From assembly GCA_022563855.1 (NCBI GenBank), contig JADFMN010000005.1:196623-239179 (forward strand): a DNA stretch of 42,557 nucleotides, read 5' to 3'. The notes beneath the pieces are model-generated. The model was not told the DNA's origin. It ran no database searches and saw nothing but the letters and a program-made list of their open reading frames with translations. Both the position numbers and the translations under genes were made by a program. Positions 5,915 to 31,142 of the stretch are shown piece by piece. This DNA is from Armatimonadota bacterium. GTDB taxonomy: Bacteria; Armatimonadota; Fimbriimonadia; Fimbriimonadales; Fimbriimonadaceae. The first letter of the stretch is position 1. Every line of letters begins with the position of its first letter.

Positions 5915-7192
5915 TTGGTGGAACAGGTAGTTAGCCAGGCAGAGCGGACGCTCCTCGACCTTATCGAGGAGCTGAGCGAATGTCACGACAACATGGACGT
6001 AATGCGCGTCGCATGCGCGCACACCGTTCGTCCGTTCCCCGATTACCTGTTCTTTGGCATTCTGCTTTCCAATCAATCGCGCCAAGAGTGGTGGTTCCTG
6101 CCGATCGAGAACCCTCGGAAGCCGTGCGACGGTTGTGTTCCGCTGGCGAAGTTGCCCAGTGACGAACCCATCGACCCTATTTTGCACGAGTTAGGGAAAG
6201 ACGTTTCGTCGCTGATGCAGCAGGGTGGCAAGATTAGCGCGCTCCTACTCACGGGCGCTGAACCGTTCTGGTGCGGCGCGGAAGACAAGTTGCTGCCTGC
6301 TCTTGCCGAAGTAACCGGTCTGTCGCCGAAGACGGTACTGGGTGCGAGTTGGGAGCGCCCTCGCGGCGGGCTGGGGTGGATGCTGTTGGGTTTCAGCGAA
6401 GCGCGACCATTCAGCGAATCCGAACTGCGCCTCTTCGAGCTGATGGTCCGCGTTACCAGCAGGATGGCGATGTACCCAGAACTCGTCCACGAAGTCGCCC
6501 GGACAGAGCGGCTCGGAGCCTCCCTGAGAAGAAACGTCGTCCACGACCTCAAGACTCCTCTTGCTGTGATCCGCGGTTACGCGGAGACGCTGCTGACCAC
6601 AGACTTCGTGGAGGACTTGGCGACGACGATGGAGCTGTTGCGCGGCGTCGTAGAGCAGACCGAGAGACTGCAGGACGACCTGGACGACATTCTAAAGCCG
6701 TTGGACGACGCTTGGCGACCGCTCCCAGAAGAGTTCGACATCGCGCGACTCGTACAGCAGACGATCATTGCGGAGCGACACACCGAGCGCGCCCGCGATC
6801 ACAGAATTCGGTTGATAGGTGCCGTCGAAGCGTGCAACATCGTGGCCGATAGGAGAAAGATCCGGCGCGTAATCGAGAATCTCACGAGCAACGCGGTCAA
6901 GTATTCGCCGGGCACGGGCAACACGGTAACGGTATCGCTCGAGAAAGACTCCAAGTTCGTTCGAGTCTCCTTCAGGGATGAGGGGATCGGCATGACGGAA
7001 AGCCAGTTGGATCGAGTATTCACAGCTACCATAAGAGTGGTGGACGACGCTCTAGGCATCGAAGGCACGGGCTTCGGCCTGGACTCCTGCAAGCGCGTTC
7101 TAGACATGCACGGCGGGAGCCTTGAGGCGTATTCGGAGCCGGGCGAAGGCTCTACGTTCATAGCTGTGATTCCGCTTGAGTTCTCCGGCTAG
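5915..7192 (+). CDS. Soluble sensor histidine kinase
   Basis: The 425-residue protein has an N-terminal sensor region of about 190 residues, possibly GAF-like but not certain. A HisKA dimerisation domain follows with the phospho-acceptor H210 in VVHDLKTPLAVIRGY, then a HATPase domain. The N box is ENLTSNAVKYS near 316, the G1 box DEGIGM near 347 and the G2 box GTGFGL near 374. No transmembrane segment is visible, so it should sense a cytosolic signal. A C-P-x-C-like CDGC stretch near residue 71 could bind metal or a redox signal. No response regulator is adjacent, making this an orphan kinase. The start is TTG at 5915 (or GTG 5918) after GAGGG. It converges on the metalloprotease gene, overlapping by four bases. 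Confidence 0.88.
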   Translation: MVEQVVSQAERTLLDLIEELSECHDNMDVMRVACAHTVRPFPDYLFFGILLSNQSRQEWWFLPIENPRKPCDGCVPLAKLPSDEPIDPILHELGKDVSSLMQQGGKISALLLTGAEPFWCGAEDKLLPALAEVTGLSPKTVLGASWERPRGGLGWMLLGFSEARPFSESELRLFELMVRVTSRMAMYPELVHEVARTERLGASLRRNVVHDLKTPLAVIRGYAETLLTTDFVEDLATTMELLRGVVEQTERLQDDLDDILKPLDDAWRPLPEEFDIARLVQQTIIAERHTERARDHRIRLIGAVEACNIVADRRKIRRVIENLTSNAVKYSPGTGNTVTVSLEKDSKFVRVSFRDEGIGMTESQLDRVFTATIRVVDDALGIEGTGFGLDSCKRVLDMHGGSLEAYSEPGEGSTFIAVIPLEFSG

Positions 7193-9597
7193 CCGCCGAC
7201 GCTGCAGAACTGCTGCCATCCGATCGGACTTCCCGGCGGCGCTGCGCTTGGCCTGGCGTAGTCGAACGTCGTTCCCGCAGGACGGAAGAGGAACCTCTCG
7301 ATCTCCTCATCGACCAGCGCCTTCTTCGGATCAGAGAGGTCCATCCTGTTCTTGATGGAAACCAGTTGCTCCCGAGCTGCCGCCCGGAGGTGGATTGAGT
7401 TCGAAGTGTCTGCCGCCAGCTGCATCAGCCTGTTCAGGTACAGCTTCCGCAACGCCCATCCGACCGGGCTGATATCGCGCCGCGCCCACGACGGGCCGAA
7501 TACGACCTCGGTTGTCGTGCCGAGAACTTCGTCGATGCCGGGGAGGTCGGCGCGGGGCCTCGTCTGTTGGATCACCCGCTCTAGCCTTGTCGGGTTGAGC
7601 AGAAACCTCAAGACGGTGTCCGCCGCAGCCTCTGACGCGGTTACCGGATCGAAGGTGGGGCTTGTCCGTGTTCCGAATATCTCGCGGTTCCCGCCGAAGC
7701 CGTACGGTCGAGGGCCGATCAGTTGTACGACGTTGTGCGGCACGGTCAGGAAGTCTTCCTCCAAGCACTCCATCAGCGCATTGAGCGCATCGCGCTGCAG
7801 GCTGGCGGGCACGAGGGTGAACGGTCGCACTCCGTCGCTGTTCACCGTGTGCGCGTAGTACACGCCGCCGATCGCCTTCGCGGCGGCCTCGACCTGGTAG
7901 CGGTGGTAAAGGAAGATCGGAACGAACACCTCCTGGAGCATCGACAGCGGCTGGTCGTTTGCGAGATTGCGCCTGCCGAAGTTCTTGAGCGCGATTTCGC
8001 GAACGGCCATCGTCTCGCGCAGTCCTTCGACCGCGTCCCGCCCGTTGTCCCAAAGGCTTGCTCTCGGGTCGGCGGCGCCTGCTGAGCGGGCGTCCTGGTC
8101 GCTCAGGAAGAGCAGGCCGCGCCTCTGTCCATCGCGTATGATTCGCTCAAGCTCTTCGTCCTCGTTGCTCGTGAACTGCGAGTACATCCACTTCACCGCG
8201 TGCTTGTCGTACACGCCGATCCCTACGTCGTAGACCTCGCTGACGTCGAGCTGATCGCCATCGACGCGGACGAGCGGCGCGGGGTAGTCCATCACCGAGC
8301 CTCGTCCGTAGGTGCTCGCCGCGAAATTGTGAGCGAGGCCGATCGTGTGTCCAACTTCATGGGCTGAAAGTTGGCGAATTCGCGCGAGGGCAAGCTCCAC
8401 CGGGTCGTCCGCGTCTCCGCTTCCGGTCTTCTCGACGCCGAGCAGGCCTTCGAAGATCAGGCGGTCTTGCCGCACTCGAAGTGAGCCGAGCGAGACGTGG
8501 CCTTTGATGATCTCGCCGGTTCTCGGATCCCTGACGGACGCGCCGTAGGACCAGCCGCGCGTGGAGCGGTGGACCCACTGGATGACGTTGTAGCGAATGT
8601 CGAGCGGGTGGGCGTCTTCGGGGAGGACCTTGACCTGGAACGCGTTGATGAAGCCTGCCTCCTCGAACGCTTCGTTCCACCAGCTAGCGCCCTCGATGAG
8701 CGCGGACCTTACCGGCTCTGGCGCGGCGTGGTCGACGTAATAAATGATCGGCTCGATCGGCTCGGACATCGCGGCGTTCGGATCCCCTTTCTCAAGTCGG
8801 TGTCGAGCGATGAACCGCTTGCTGATCGACTCGCTGAGCGGAACGGTGTAGTCGAGGTACGAGATTCCGAATGCGCCGATGCGGGTGTCGGCCTCGCGCC
8901 TCTGATAGCCGTCGTCGGGGAGCTCGACGATCGAGACGTGCTGCACGAGGCTCCAGCTTTCGGGGATTTCAGTCGTCGCGCGCACGAAGTTGCCGGGGCC
9001 GGAGACCTTGAACGTCAGGAACGCTTCGAACTCCAGGTTCTTCGGGAACGAGAGGCACTGCTCGAAGTCGATCGCGCTCTTTCCGGCATCGATGCTGGCA
9101 GAGCCCTGTCCGGCGAGCGATCGCCCCACATGGTGTGCGTCGCGCAGGACGAACGAGGTCAGATCGATCAGCAGGTTGCCGTCGTCGTCCTCGGCCTCTA
9201 TCTTGGTCGCCCAGAGGACCGATGGTGCGAACGCCTCGGCCACGGATCGCCGTTCGGCTGGCGACCCCTGTTCGGCGCGGAAACCGAGGTTGGGGACGAA
9301 GAAGACGATCTTGTCGGCCATCCGCTTGATCTCGACGACGTAGGACGGGCCGAGTTGGCCGCGGTCGAGCCCGACGTCGTTCGACCCGAGCCCCGTTCGG
9401 ATCGCGCTGAGCATCAGGAACTCGCGCATGTCCTGGGGCCGGATCAGCATCATCAGCTTGTTCGCCTTGGCTTCGTGGAACGTAGTCAGGAGCCCGTCGT
9501 GCCGCTCCATGCCCTCGGTCATCTCTTCGATCGGAGTCTGCCCAAGCGCCAGGGCGCTCAGGGCGAGAACTGTCAAGACGATCATCGCGCGCGTCAT
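7189..9597 (-). CDS. Secreted zinc metalloprotease (DUF5117/DUF5118-like)
   Basis: From ATG at 9597 the product is 802 residues and starts with a signal peptide (MTRAMIVLTVLALSALALGQ). The active site is HEVGHTIGLAHN: zinc ligands H413, H417 and H423 and catalytic E414. This extended HExxHxxGxxH pattern is metzincin-like. The overall layout resembles large zinc-dependent proteases with DUF5117 and DUF5118 domains, and it probably degrades extracellular proteins. The reading frame stays open upstream to 10200, but that 201-codon extension is translated dispersed repeat and precedes the signal peptide, so it is not real. TATAAG (9605-9610) lies seven bases before the ATG with no SD, suggesting a near-leaderless transcript. 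Confidence 0.85.
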   Translation of the reverse strand: MTRAMIVLTVLALSALALGQTPIEEMTEGMERHDGLLTTFHEAKANKLMMLIRPQDMREFLMLSAIRTGLGSNDVGLDRGQLGPSYVVEIKRMADKIVFFVPNLGFRAEQGSPAERRSVAEAFAPSVLWATKIEAEDDDGNLLIDLTSFVLRDAHHVGRSLAGQGSASIDAGKSAIDFEQCLSFPKNLEFEAFLTFKVSGPGNFVRATTEIPESWSLVQHVSIVELPDDGYQRREADTRIGAFGISYLDYTVPLSESISKRFIARHRLEKGDPNAAMSEPIEPIIYYVDHAAPEPVRSALIEGASWWNEAFEEAGFINAFQVKVLPEDAHPLDIRYNVIQWVHRSTRGWSYGASVRDPRTGEIIKGHVSLGSLRVRQDRLIFEGLLGVEKTGSGDADDPVELALARIRQLSAHEVGHTIGLAHNFAASTYGRGSVMDYPAPLVRVDGDQLDVSEVYDVGIGVYDKHAVKWMYSQFTSNEDEELERIIRDGQRRGLLFLSDQDARSAGAADPRASLWDNGRDAVEGLRETMAVREIALKNFGRRNLANDQPLSMLQEVFVPIFLYHRYQVEAAAKAIGGVYYAHTVNSDGVRPFTLVPASLQRDALNALMECLEEDFLTVPHNVVQLIGPRPYGFGGNREIFGTRTSPTFDPVTASEAAADTVLRFLLNPTRLERVIQQTRPRADLPGIDEVLGTTTEVVFGPSWARRDISPVGWALRKLYLNRLMQLAADTSNSIHLRAAAREQLVSIKNRMDLSDPKKALVDEEIERFLFRPAGTTFDYARPSAAPPGSPIGWQQFCSVGG

Positions 9598-9701
9598 GAT
9601 TGTTCTTATACTCGAAACGGGGCGTTCAGGGTCGAGGATCGAGGGTCTAGGGTCGAGGGGAGTTGGCAGTTTGCAGTGACCAGTTTGCAAAAGGATGATC
9701 A

Positions 9702-9782
9702 GGGGCGACTGCTTGGCGACGACCAGGCGACGGCGAAGCGGCCGACGCATCCAAGGGAGGGCGAGCGTCCCCGCGAGCCGCG
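9702..9782 (+). repeat. About 78-bp dispersed repeat, copy 1
   Basis: This unit starts GGGGCGACTGCTTGGCGACG and ends in the GGGAGGGCGAGCGTCCCCGC block. It recurs at 9885 with only a few differences. The terminal block also occurs inside hutI at 16691. A shorter relative of its first half (ACCAGGCGAC) occurs near 27411 and 29514. Confidence 0.85.
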
Positions 9783-9789
9783 GCCTGGC

Positions 9790-9877
9790 GAGTGCCGAGT
9801 GCCGAGTGCTGAATGCTGAGTGCTGAGTGCGGAGTGCTGAGTGCTGAATGCTGAATGCTGAATGCTGATTGCTGAAC
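9790..9877 (+). repeat. Heptamer tandem array 1 (GTGCTGA-like)
   Basis: About twelve units of a degenerate 7-bp repeat, (A/G)TGC(T/C)GA, run head to tail. Because 7 and 3 are coprime, it stays open in all frames and creates spurious 'QHSALST' peptides. Confidence 0.85.
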
Positions 9878-9884
9878 GATGCAC

Positions 9885-9963
9885 GGGGCGACTGCTTGGC
9901 GACGACCAGGCGACGGCGAAGTGGCCGACGCATCCAAGGGAGGGCGAGCATCCTTGCGAGCCG
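9885..9963 (+). repeat. About 78-bp dispersed repeat, copy 2
   Basis: Near-identical to the copy at 9702, with a few substitutions mainly in the terminal block (GCATCCTTGCG instead of GCGTCCCCGCG). The two copies bracket the first heptamer array. Confidence 0.85.
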
Positions 9964-10040
9964 CACCTGTGACTTGGCGATGTGTTGCAGATGGACTTCA
10001 TGGCTACCCCGCACGGTCATCGGGGCAACCATGCCACGCG

Positions 10041-10096
10041 CCGAGTGCCGAGTGCTGAATGCTGAGTGCTGAGTGCTGAGTGCGGAGTGCTGAGTG
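10041..10096 (+). repeat. Heptamer tandem array 2
   Basis: About eight units of the same degenerate heptamer as at 9790, again next to a dispersed-repeat copy. Confidence 0.85.
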
Positions 10097-10105
10097 ATGC
10101 GACGA

Positions 10106-10176
10106 GTCCCCTCAACCGTCATCCTGAGCGAGCCTGTCCTGAGCGGATCGAAGGAAAGGAGCGCGGTTGAGGGGAC
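10106..10176. repeat. Hairpin element with TCCTGAGC...TCGAAGGA core
   Basis: The arms GTCCCCTCAACCG (10106-10118) and CGGTTGAGGGGAC (10164-10176) are perfect 13-bp complements. They enclose two TCCTGAGCG cores and GGATCGAAGGA. Related elements with different but self-complementary arms lie at 31171 and 31287. Confidence 0.8.
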
Positions 10177-10468
10177 GGCACTCTCCGCCTGATTCGACAA
10201 TCACCACTTTCTGGCCGTCTGGGCGACGGCGAAGCGGGCGGCGGCACCCGATGGAGGGCGCTGCTCCGTCGGCGCCCCGGAGCGTAGCGTAAAAAAACGC
10301 ACGACTCGGATGCTCACGGGCTATCGCGCCGTTCGCTGTTCGCGATTCTCCCGAACTGCCGAACCTCCGAACTCCCGAACGCGACCTAATCCTGCGTTGA
10401 GAATGGACGATATGTTGTAGATGAAGTTCATGGCTGTCACGCACGATCATCGGGACAACCATGCCACC

Positions 10469-16175: not shown

Positions 16176-17420
16176 TTAGGCACGGAAAATCGCCCGTTCG
16201 CCGTTCTTGTAGATAGTGTGGACGTGGTCTACGCCGAAGAAGTATGGGATTTCGCGGTAGTCGTCGACGTCCCACGCGACTAGGTCGGCGACCGTTCCTT
16301 GCTTGATCTGTCCTCGATCTTTGTAGCCGAGGGCCGTTGCTGCGTTTTTGGTGCAGGCTAGCAGGGCTTCAGCGGGTGTCATGCCCATTTGTGTGCATGC
16401 GAGCGACATGATCATGGGGAGGCTAGGGGTCGGCGATGAGCCGGGGTTGAAGTCCGTGGCGAGCACGACCGGCAGGCCCTCGTCGATCATCTTCCTTGCG
16501 TCGGGATACTTGCCCAGTCCGAGCGCGTAAACGCTTCCGGGGAGGAGCACCGGGATGGTTCCGCTCTCTTTGAGGGCTTCTATTCCCGTGTCGGTCGTCT
16601 GCTCGAGGTGGTCGGCGGTGCTGGCGTTGAGCCGCGCCGCCAGCACTGCTCCGCCGGTCGAAAACTGGTCGACGTGCAGCCTTAACCGCAGGGAGGGCGA
16701 GCGTCCCCGCGAGCCGCGCTCGTCGCCGATACAGGTCTGGAGACCCGCGCTGCAATTTGCGAGCCGCTCGGCGTCTTCGTGCGAGAAGTACCCGTCTTCG
16801 ACGAACATATCGACCGCGACCGCAATGCCCTGTTCCATGACGGCGGGCATCATCGCGTCGCAAAGATAATCCATGTACGCCGCGCGATCGTCGAACTCCG
16901 GAGGCACGGCGTGCGCTCCGAGGAACGTCGCCTGTGTGTCGATCGGCGTTTCTTCATCGAGCCGCTTGATGACGCGTAGCATCTTCAGCTCGTCTTCGAG
17001 CGTCAGCCCGTACCCGCTCTTCATTTCTGCAGTCGTGGTGCCGGATCGGAACATCCAGTCGGCATGCTTCTTGGACTGGTCGAACAGCTCGCTTTCGGTC
17101 GCTTTGCGGACGGCGCGCATCGTCGCCTTGATCCCTCCGCCCGCGCTTGCGATCTCTTGGTAGCTTGCGCCCTTTGCGCGCATTTCGTACTCGTCCACCC
17201 GGCTCCCGGCGAACACCGCGTGCGTGTGCGCATCGATCAGCCCCGGCGTGACGACGCGACCGCCGACGTCTATAGTCTCAACATCCGGCGGAACTTGCTG
17301 GCCCTCTGAGACGGCTACGATCACCCCGTCCGAGACCAGCACCGTCGCGTCCTCGATCACTCCTGCCTCGGAACAGGTCGCGACCTGTCCGCAGTTCGTC
17401 AACGCGAAAGTGCCTGCCAT
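16176..17420 (-). CDS. hutI: Imidazolonepropionase (HutI) with an in-frame repeat insertion
   Basis: This enzyme hydrolyses 4-imidazolone-5-propanoate to N-formimino-glutamate, step three of histidine degradation. Metal-dependent amidohydrolase motifs are clear: GLIDAHTHAVFAGSR, RLHVDQFST, TADHLEQTTD and VVLATDFNPGSSPTPS. The frame is open back to a TTG at 17552, but that codon lies in a hairpin repeat and the first 44 residues contain repeat-like sequence; M45 (17420) begins the conserved fold. No SD is visible, so the start is uncertain. Between ANC and LRLRLHVDQF lie about 20 extra residues (SAGLQTCIGDERGSRGRSPS, 16692-16751) encoded by a dispersed repeat. Without them the length would be normal for the family. 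Confidence 0.92.
   Translation of the reverse strand: MAGTFALTNCGQVATCSEAGVIEDATVLVSDGVIVAVSEGQQVPPDVETIDVGGRVVTPGLIDAHTHAVFAGSRVDEYEMRAKGASYQEIASAGGGIKATMRAVRKATESELFDQSKKHADWMFRSGTTTAEMKSGYGLTLEDELKMLRVIKRLDEETPIDTQATFLGAHAVPPEFDDRAAYMDYLCDAMMPAVMEQGIAVAVDMFVEDGYFSHEDAERLANCSAGLQTCIGDERGSRGRSPSLRLRLHVDQFSTGGAVLAARLNASTADHLEQTTDTGIEALKESGTIPVLLPGSVYALGLGKYPDARKMIDEGLPVVLATDFNPGSSPTPSLPMIMSLACTQMGMTPAEALLACTKNAATALGYKDRGQIKQGTVADLVAWDVDDYREIPYFFGVDHVHTIYKNGERAIFRA
16692..16751 (-). repeat. Dispersed repeat inserted in frame in hutI
   Basis: The 60-bp segment encodes 20 residues with no counterpart in typical HutI. Its GGGAGGGCGAGCGTCCCCGC block followed by GAGCCGCG matches the repeat units at 9702 and 9885. 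Its other end (CAGGTCTGGAGACCCG) is a near-palindrome. The length is a multiple of three, so the frame is kept. Confidence 0.75.
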
Positions 17421-17534: not shown

Positions 17535-17602
17535 TTTGGACTGAGAGTCCAAAGGCAGGGATGCGGTCCTTCGACAAGCTCAGGAAAGAGTCCGCGCTCC
17601 GA
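17535..17602 (+). repeat. Composite hairpin repeat, copy 1
   Basis: The head is a perfect hairpin, TTTGGACT-GAG-AGTCCAAA. It is followed by GGGATGCGGTCCTTCGACAA, GCTCAGGA and GAGTCCGCGCTCCGA. It is nearly identical to 20769-20838 and to the inverted copy at 26895-26963. It lies between hutG and hutI. Confidence 0.85.
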
Positions 17603-17613
17603 GCGCTGCCATG

Positions 17614-17636
17614 CCTCCACACTCGCAGTGTGGAGG
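17614..17636. repeat. Palindromic repeat CCTCCACACT-CGC-AGTGTGGAGG
   Basis: A perfect 10-bp inverted repeat with a three-base loop. The same arms with loop TCG recur at 26792-26814. It could act as a weak terminator or processing site in the hutG-hutI gap. Confidence 0.85.
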
Positions 17637-17672
17637 GTTCTATCGTTGCCACCGGCTGTCCAGCGATGCCTG

Positions 17673-20226: not shown

Positions 20227-20511
20227 GGCCGTATTTTACTGGGGTTCGGAAGTTCGGGGGTTCGGGAGTTCGGATTGGCTCGGGTTTGTTTTCGGGATTC
20301 GTGACTCGTAACTCGGGACTCGGGACTTCCGACTTACGTGTTCCGATGGAGGGTCGTTCTCCTGGGCGACCTTGGCTTTGGCTTGCAGTGTGTTTCCGCT
20401 TGCGACCCCCTCACCTCAATCCTCTCGCTCCAGGGGAGAGGAGGCTGAAACCCGGAGCCCCGCGTTGGAGCGTGGCGCGTCATCCTGAGCGGATCGAAGG
20501 ATCATGCGACA

Positions 20512-20610
20512 CCGCGCCTTTGACTCACGGGCTACCGCGCCTTTGACTCACGGGCTACCGCGCCTTTGACTCACGGGCTACCGCGCCTTTGACTCACGGG
20601 CTACCGCGCC
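20512..20610 (+). repeat. 23-bp tandem array, 4.3 copies
   Basis: Four identical units of CCGCGCCTTTGACTCACGGG plus CTA begin at 20512, 20535, 20558 and 20581, followed by a 7-bp partial unit. A diverged single unit appears near 10315. Perfect identity between units suggests recent expansion. Confidence 0.95.
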
Positions 20611-20768
20611 GTTCGTCTTTGAGGTTCGGGAGTTCGGGATCGTTCTCGATTGCACTGAGAAGGTGGCACGGCCATCCTGGCCGTGCGTGGCTCGGGCATC
20701 TTGCCCGATCGCTGTCGCAGGTTTTCTGCTGGATGGTTGGGCATCCTGTCGTCGTAGAGCCTGTCTGC

Positions 20769-20838
20769 CGTGGACTAAAAGTCCACGGGCCGGGATGCGG
20801 TCCTTCGACAAGCTCAGGAGAGAGTCCGCGCTCCGAAT
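20769..20838 (+). repeat. Composite hairpin repeat, copy 2
   Basis: Hairpin CGTGGACT-AAA-AGTCCACG followed by the same tail as the copy at 17535 (GGGATGCGGTCCTTCGACAA onward). The head arms differ from copy 1 but remain self-complementary. Confidence 0.85.
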
Positions 20839-26736: not shown

Positions 26737-26791
26737 ATTGTTCATGCCTCCAAACTCATGGAAGGAAGGGGTTTTTTGGCGGCACAAGTAC

Positions 26792-26814
26792 CCTCCACAC
26801 TTCGAGTGTGGAGG
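26792..26814. repeat. Palindromic repeat CCTCCACACT-TCG-AGTGTGGAGG
   Basis: Same arms as 17614-17636 with a different loop, flanked here by an extra C and G. Confidence 0.85.
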
Positions 26815-26822
26815 GATGTAAG

Positions 26823-26894: not shown

Positions 26895-26963
26895 TCGGAG
26901 CGCGGGCTCTTTCCTGAGCTTGTCGAAGGACCGCAACCCGGCATGTGGACTCTGCAGTCCACA
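26895..26963 (-). repeat. Composite hairpin repeat, copy 3 (inverted)
   Basis: Reverse-oriented tail (TCCTGAGCTTGTCGAAGGA) ending in the hairpin TGTGGACT-CTGC-AGTCCACA. Same family as 17535 and 20769. Confidence 0.8.
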
Positions 26964-29798: not shown

Positions 29799-31142
29799 AT
29801 GAGACCGACGTCTAAGTATTTGGTAGTCGTTTTGGCCGCAATAGCGGCTGCTCCGCTCGTGCAAGCTACTGGCCAGGACAAGATTGTGTTTCATTCCGAG
29901 CGCGTGGGCCCCGGCAACAATGATATCTTCGTCATGAACGCGGACGGCTCCGGGCTGACGAACCTTACGAACGACGCGGTTGACGATATATCTCCTGCGT
30001 TCAACGCGGACGGGTCGAAGATCGTGTACCGATCGTCTGGCCCGAGTAGCCCGGATATCTTCGTCATGAACGCGGACGGCACCGGGAAGACAAACCTGAC
30101 GAACGACTACCAGATCATCGATAGCAATCCTGCGTTCAGCTGGGACGGATCGAAGATCGCGTTTCAGGCCTGGGAGGGCTTCAGCGAACAAATCCACGTC
30201 ATGAACGCAGACGGCTCTGGGCGGACGAACCTTTCGAACAACCTGTTTGGCGATGCCTCTCCTGCGTTCCGTCCGGACGGGTCGAAGATCGTGTTTGAGT
30301 CCGGGCGCGACGGCAACAGTGAGATCTACATCATGAACGCCGACGGCACAGGAGTGACGCGGCTGACCTTTAGCGCGGGTCGCGATCAGCGCCCTGTGTT
30401 CAGCCCTGACGGGTCGAAGATCGCGTTTGACTCCAACCGCAGCGCCGGGTTTCAGATCTACGTTATGAACCCGGACGGCTCTGGGTTGACGAACCTGACC
30501 AATCACACGGGTACCAATTGGAGTGCTGCGTTCAGCCCGGACGGATCGAAGATCGCGTTTGCGTCCGGGCGCGACGGCAACAGTGAGATCTACATCATGA
30601 ACGCCGACGGCTCTGGGCAGACGCGGCTGACGAACAACGCGGCCAACGATGCACAGCCCTCCATCGGGATGGCGCAGACCACGACGGTCTCGCCGGACAG
30701 CTTCTCTCTGTTCCGCGGGATTCTGACCGGCGGCGGGTTGAGCGATCTGCTAGCCAGCGACGACAGCTGGATGCGGGTTAGGCCGGGGATCACGCTGAAC
30801 CAGGCTGAGCGACAAGTGCAGCTGATCGTCGTCGGCACTTCTCCGACTGAAACGCCGAGCGAGCTTCGGATCAGAGTAGAGGCCCACGCCGAGATCAACA
30901 ACATCGGCCAGTGGATCGAGCTGTGGAACTACGACACAAGCTCGTGGGAAGAGGTCGACTTCATGATCGCTACGTTGGCGGACTCGATAGTTGAGGTGAG
31001 CATCACGGTCGACCCGGGACGGTTCATCGAGGCGGGCACGAGGCAGATGAAAGCCAAGATCAGCTACAAAGAAGCTGGGATTGTGCTCTCGTACCCATGG
31101 CTGATCAGCTTCGATCAGACGGTGTGGATCATCGTCTATTGA
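29799..31142 (+). CDS. Secreted TolB-like PD40 beta-propeller protein
   Basis: A signal peptide (YLVVVLAAIAAAPLVQATGQ) leads into six tandem WD40-like PD40 blades of about 43 residues. Each has the pattern I-F-V/Y-x-x-x-R...IYIMNADGSG-T-LTN...P-FSPDGSK. The nucleotide sequence is likewise a roughly 130-bp tandem repeat. The last 150 residues form a different all-beta domain starting near SPDSFSLFRGILTGGG and ending YPWLISFDQTVWIIVY. I recall similar tails on other Armatimonadota surface proteins, which would make it a lineage-specific module; this is memory, not a search. The protein probably binds partners in the cell envelope. AAGGA lies five bases before the ATG. Confidence 0.85.
   Translation: MRPTSKYLVVVLAAIAAAPLVQATGQDKIVFHSERVGPGNNDIFVMNADGSGLTNLTNDAVDDISPAFNADGSKIVYRSSGPSSPDIFVMNADGTGKTNLTNDYQIIDSNPAFSWDGSKIAFQAWEGFSEQIHVMNADGSGRTNLSNNLFGDASPAFRPDGSKIVFESGRDGNSEIYIMNADGTGVTRLTFSAGRDQRPVFSPDGSKIAFDSNRSAGFQIYVMNPDGSGLTNLTNHTGTNWSAAFSPDGSKIAFASGRDGNSEIYIMNADGSGQTRLTNNAANDAQPSIGMAQTTTVSPDSFSLFRGILTGGGLSDLLASDDSWMRVRPGITLNQAERQVQLIVVGTSPTETPSELRIRVEAHAEINNIGQWIELWNYDTSSWEEVDFMIATLADSIVEVSITVDPGRFIEAGTRQMKAKISYKEAGIVLSYPWLISFDQTVWIIVY

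Follow-up and report, generated by a model that had tools for sequence, protein, structure and literature searches.

Short palindromic repeats that lie in frame within genes and are translated are already known as intragenic REPs from Opitutus terrae and other bacteria (Di Nocera et al. 2013, PMC3733652). According to the portions of that paper considered here, intragenic REP dimers often encode 20–30 residues, and the Rickettsia palindromic elements RPE-4 and RPE-6 are treated together with in-frame REPs. Two other systems are closely comparable. In REPtrons (RAYT/TnpA_REP), a Tyr/HUH transposase gene is flanked by inverted REPs, each made of a tag and an imperfect hairpin (Nunvar et al. 2010, PMC2817692; PMC8266576). 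In BIMEs, the y/z REP mosaics of E. coli, and in REPINs (PMC3116915), two REPs are opposed around a short spacer.

The locus described here is the hutI gene of an Armatimonadota bacterium of the family Fimbriimonadaceae, located in a window of 42,557 nucleotides, i.e., the whole stretch of DNA that was analysed. Its anomalous segment is best explained as a mixed head-to-head dimer of two RAYT-associated REPs, here termed REP A and REP B, which landed in hutI and is translated; we assign this reading a probability of roughly 0.86. As with the REP-decorated proteins covered in the considered portions of PMC3733652, a conserved gene contains, in frame, a short palindromic repeat that is usually intergenic; dimers there encode 20–30 residues, and a verrucomicrobium (O. 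terrae) is among the richest hosts. Unlike in those proteins, two repeat families are combined in one dimer, one site is read in two frames in sister species, the REP A tag is GGAG rather than GTAG, and the host family lies outside those covered there. No precedent for sister species that read one REP in two different frames at a shared protein site was found in the parts of the REP literature considered, and a text search of the literature for the REP A sequence and the peptide RGSRGRSPS returned nothing relevant. The hutI insert adds to a known kind, the intragenic translated REPs, and its two-frame history is instructive.

Composition of the hutI insert

The hutI product belongs to the HutI family by its score against TIGR01224 (442.6 bits in a family model search; cut-off 298) and by its conserved metal ligands, H109, H111, H293 and D367, which are invariant in an alignment with relatives. 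Urocanase-like and arginase-like ORFs adjoin the gene. An earlier sequence-only reading placed 20 residues, SAGLQTCIGDERGSRGRSPS, at 16692–16751 on the minus strand, in frame and immediately preceding LRLRLHVDQ, and this placement is correct. The same reading described a 60-bp insertion that keeps the frame; the frame is indeed kept, but the element measures 66 bp (Table 1). The net gain of HutI over its relatives in the alignment is 15–18 residues, not 20, because 4–7 ancestral residues are missing. The segment had also been equated with a repeat seen near 9750–9960. The two copies there do match, at 27/27 (9755–9781) and 24/27 (9938–9964) positions, with no matches expected in 100 shuffles; the equation holds for about half of the 60 bp (16691–16717, REP A), but not for the remainder, which contains a second dispersed repeat (16732–16756, REP B).

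Table 1. Coordinates of hutI, the REP dimer insert and associated repeats in the window
Feature	Position	Strand	Remarks
hutI, imidazolonepropionase, 458 aa	16176..17552	minus	ORF; stop codon 16176-16178
Whole REP dimer insert, 66 bp	16691..16756	minus	Contributes to HutI residues 266-288
REP A, GGGAGGGCGAGCGTCCCCGCGAGCCGC	16691..16717	plus	27/27 to genome consensus; 48 copies; hairpin
Spacer between REP A and REP B, 14 nt	16718..16731		Length kept in two other A-B dimers
REP B, CAGGTCTGGAGACCCGCGCTGCAAT	16732..16756	minus	24 copies, 0 in control; aligned copies
Direct repeat CGGCTCGC, 8 nt, copy inside REP A	16709..16716	minus	Copies 50 nt apart
Direct repeat CGGCTCGC, 8 nt, copy in hutI codons for ERLA	16759..16766	minus	Same comparison
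REP A, upstream-region copy	9755..9781	plus	Identical to hutI copy
REP A, second copy in 183-bp duplication	9938..9964	plus	3 mismatches

REP A consists of a GGAG tag at its left (outer) end, followed by an imperfect palindrome whose stem contains tandem G/A mismatches, similar to the mismatch bulge that E. coli REPs require; by inspection, it contains no stop codon in any of the six frames. The hutI copy of REP B matches its family at 22/25 positions and has its tag at the right (outer) end, where hutI has GCAG and other copies have GTGG or GTAG. Since both tags point outward, the arrangement is a head-to-head dimer in the terms used in the considered portions of Di Nocera et al. 2013 (PMC3733652). 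The REP B stem is nearly perfect, and its consensus hairpin has a z of -3.3; the hutI segment, including the REP A hairpin, folds no more stably than shuffles, excess stability being found only for the REP B consensus. The A-14-B layout recurs twice on contig C10, at 41.8 kb and 43.2 kb, with unrelated spacer sequences, and a looser A-B layout is present on contig C13. That the segment is an ordinary loop expansion resembling a repeat by chance has a negligible probability, given that two repeat families, spaced as usual, are matched at 27/27 and 22/25 positions where 0 matches are expected; no support for it was found.

The opposed repeats around a short spacer recall BIMEs and REPINs, but here the partners come from different families, and the spacer is kept in length and not in sequence. 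REPINs consist of two copies of the same REP, inverted and replicating as a unit; with two families, differing spacers and few copies of the dimer, the hutI insert is not a replicating REPIN.

Repeat families and candidate transposases

The REP A 27-mer has 48 copies genome-wide at up to 3 mismatches (reversed control, 0). REP B has 24 copies (control, 0). Both are thus multi-copy, dispersed short palindromes, as RAYT-associated REPs are. The sequence-only reading, in which a dispersed intergenic repeat had inserted in frame into hutI and which absence of the repeat from intergenic DNA elsewhere would contradict, stands in so far as the 48 dispersed REP A copies are mostly intergenic and palindromic; it falls short in that the insert is a dimer of two different REPs, not a single repeat. 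A search for the repeat inside other proteins had been proposed, and a survey of the ORFs spanning REP A or REP B copies in the genome, each classed by reading it, judged hutI to be the sole conserved gene carrying the repeat within its body. In the other ORFs, as judged in the same way, the repeat lies at gene ends or the ORF looks spurious.

Other repeats were observed in the window. Tandem arrays of TGCTGAG-like 7-mers occupy 9793–9874 and 10046–10100, near the REP A copies; the ORF at 7189–10200 spans these arrays, so that its true start is probably near 9600. A 23-bp tandem repeat, TCACGGGCTACCGCGCCTTTGAC, at 20502–20616 resembles the module CTCACGGGCTATCGCGCCGTTCG, which in other parts of the genome is often a neighbour of REP A and REP B. 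A dispersed repeat of 57–59 bp (GGATGCGGTCCTTCGACAAGCTCAGGA...) is present at 17544–17602, 20780–20836 and 26895–26953, one copy overlapping the predicted hutI start region. At 29898–30690, a coding repeat with a 132-bp period, FVMNADGT-like, possibly encodes beta-propeller blades.

Each REP is associated with a transposase gene in the same genome. The A-RAYT gene (C1:477766-478260) scores 81.8 bits against NF047646, the REP-associated tyrosine transposase model (cut-off 80), and is flanked by four forward REP A copies on one side and two reversed copies on the other (C1:477538-478357). The B-RAYT gene (C10:56678-56920) carries a Y1_Tnp domain, and REP B copies at C10:56423 and 57068 lie on either side of it in opposite orientations. 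Copies of both REP A and REP B therefore flank a RAYT gene in inverted orientation, and REP A likewise flanks relatives of A-RAYT in Kiritimatiellae and Lentisphaerae genomes. Because each repeat flanks its own RAYT in this way, the genome encodes a candidate mover for either half of the hutI insert, and the insert is classed as a RAYT-type REP dimer, mixed and head-to-head. We infer that these RAYTs moved the hutI copy of the REPs. The arrangement differs from described REPtrons in the GGAG tag of REP A and in a host and REP sequence without precedent in PMC2817692 and PMC8266576, and the RAYTs named here are candidates by sequence.

A third palindromic repeat, CCTCCACACTCGCAGTGTGGAGG, occurs in the window at 17610–17641 and 26787–26818, one copy lying just upstream of hutI. 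Peptides that it could encode flank both sides of another Y1_Tnp gene (L058, C6:166238); repeat and gene are possibly a third REP-RAYT pair.

With respect to the GTAG superfamily, the two REPs are classified differently. REP B fits it: its copies carry GTGG and, in some cases, GTAG, and the GCAG of the hutI copy is a GYAG variant; GTGG is accepted as the tag of O. terrae GTAG-20 in the considered portions of PMC3733652. In REP A the tag is GGAG in almost every copy, whichever of the examined hosts is considered, and this is not among the variants listed there; for this reason, REP A is filed as a RAYT-associated REP and not as a member of the superfamily. The CGTC-tag REPs were considered because REP A contains CGTC, and this identity was rejected: in REP A, CGTC runs across part of the hairpin, from stem into loop, and does not form a tag at the end, and REPs of the CGTC group have been reported to lack accompanying transposases. 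No target-site rule was found for the REP insertions.

The insert had also been likened to the palindromic elements that invade Rickettsia proteins. As an analogy this is apt, both being palindromic repeats translated within conserved proteins, a likeness drawn by description; the hutI element would, however, belong to the RAYT-associated REP kind, and it is distinguished from RPEs by a RAYT as its likely mover.

Compared with the 48 copies in this genome, REP A has 15 in the one genus mate compared. It is absent from 81 of 83 other genomes of the family, the remaining two having 1–2 near matches, and occurs as one copy each in four other genomes of a wider phylum sample. Among the matches listed in an exact-pattern scan of species genomes, most come from Kiritimatiellae, Lentisphaerae, Verrucomicrobia and Phycisphaerae, and where copies were counted, a single genome has as many as 50. 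Amplification only in this genus within the family, together with the commonness of the repeat in PVC bacteria, suggests that the REP A system was acquired by the genus.

The same site in a sister species

An alignment with HutI from relatives had been proposed as a check of strain specificity. The segment is absent from solved HutI structures and from 28 relatives outside the genus, which argues against its being a part of HutI shared by many phyla, but it is not strictly specific to one species, the REP A half being present at the same site in a sister species. The hutI gene of this genus mate has at the same codons GCGGCTCGCGGAGACGCTCGCCCTCCC, which matches REP A at 26/27 positions; other relatives match at no more than 16/27 at the hutI site and 19/27 anywhere in their 4-kb loci. 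The sister reads REP A in a different frame, as RLAETLALP, whereas the present species reads ...GSRGRSPS. In the sister frame the repeat passes for normal HutI, and a protein alignment alone would miss it. A HutI protein query against the genome contigs found no relative.

The two alleles can be connected by a simple rearrangement. In the present species, one copy of CGGCTCGC lies in the ERLA codons and another, at a distance of 50 nt, in REP A; a deletion between the two would leave the layout of the left part of the sister sequence. With a further 4-nt difference in the right flanks, the sisters differ by a net 54 nt, in frame. The simplest account is one insertion before the species split, followed by divergence. 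A REP copy would have entered a helix-to-strand loop of HutI in the ancestor of the genus, moved by RAYTs, HUH/Tyr single-strand transposases (TnpA_REP) that would recognise the tag and hairpin on single-stranded DNA. The alleles would then have diverged, the present species having B-14-A and the sister A alone, mimicking native HutI. In the simplest order, the dimer was inserted first, and in the sister a 50-bp deletion between the 8-nt repeats and a 4-nt change would have followed, keeping the frame.

Two independent REP A insertions at this one site, guided by CGGCTCGC in the ERLA codons through microhomology or target preference, are an unlikely but serious alternative. The octamer in the hutI codons does match the REP A end, the two species differ in reading frame and in flanks, and the other REP A loci compared are not common to both: when seven distinct REP A loci of the sister were set against the REP A loci fetched from this genome, an orthologous neighbourhood was found only at hutI. 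It should be noted that this comparison involves one genus mate with a genome 68% complete and is partial for the REP A loci. Against two insertions, the same few codons would have been struck twice with only about 15 and 48 copies per genome, and the sister sequence, save point changes and the right flank, is the product expected of the deletion between the 8-nt repeats.

Effect on the enzyme and other translated elements

In an AlphaFold2 model of HutI (mean pLDDT 88.8), which matches the HutI crystal structure 2g3f with a Z of 54, pLDDT falls below 50 solely at residues 1–37, the N-terminal tail, and 273–282. The latter lie between helix 258–270 and strand 289–294, and the prediction agrees with the earlier expectation of a surface loop in that it places the REP segment in a disordered, flexible loop. 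The helix-to-strand loops of a TIM-like barrel are expected on the face opposite the active site. The insert would have been tolerated because REP A is stop-free in any frame and because the loop would, by prediction, point away from the active site.

As had been stated from sequence, the catalytic motifs are intact: all invariant catalytic positions are kept in the alignment with relatives, and of 49 near-invariant positions in this HutI, 48 are intact and one is altered, a number of departures also seen in its relatives. These data make it improbable that hutI is decaying in this species and that the insert is a lesion in which the frame survived by accident. Its length and predicted disorder would fit such a lesion, but the ORF is intact, all metal ligands are kept, and the urocanase-like and arginase-like neighbours are in place. 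Co-option of the insert, e.g., for regulation or interaction through the loop, or for tuning hutI expression through an mRNA hairpin, is slightly less probable still. It would fit the finding that hutI is the only REP A locus common to both species among those compared, and REPs have been proposed to act in RNA (PMC3733652, in the portions considered); yet the sisters differ here in both sequence and frame, disorder is predicted for the loop, and the fold of the segment is no stronger than that of shuffles. Moreover, retention of the segment is expected without co-option, because only a deletion that preserves the frame could take it out of a coding gene. No new function is assigned to the REP-derived segment in HutI, which is most likely neutral.

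Other mobile elements lying in frame were observed. An ORF for the N-terminal half of CarB in this genome (C1:284752-287460, minus strand, L220) has a complete RAYT embedded in frame, with KDLRH on one side and the PTDERLWA region on the other. RAYT-derived in-frame inserts occupy the same carB site in two other genera (G006, L221; G002, L222), with identities of 48% and 33%, respectively, within the insert; the HUH and Tyr motifs are intact in G006 and degenerate in G002. The genus mate and most others lack the insert. A whole RAYT in frame within CarB may be more unusual than the hutI case.

In other bacteria, REP A itself occurs in frame. Kiritimatiellae RAYT genes carry their own REP A between the HUH motif and the WDTQ region (L095 920-1808, L151 66-801, L144 3249-3963). 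The clearest case among the matches listed is REP A in the linker between two MutL domains (L143 2669-4591), and further copies lie in frame near the ends of UvrD-like, type ISP methylase and topoisomerase A-like domains (L172, L119, L104).

The two HutIs provide a concrete enzyme pair for testing the cost of such inserts. In them, a selfish repeat tied to a likely transposase across several phyla appears to have been caught at two stages of assimilation in one enzyme, as an added loop, predicted to be disordered, in one species and as native-looking sequence in its sister. We suggest, as a doubtful and more general proposal, that RAYTs and REPs are stop-free in-frame passengers, and that translated REPs may outlast intergenic copies and be re-read until they look native, whole RAYTs faring likewise, as in CarB. 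If this is true, REPs would keep supplying these bacteria with new protein sequence.
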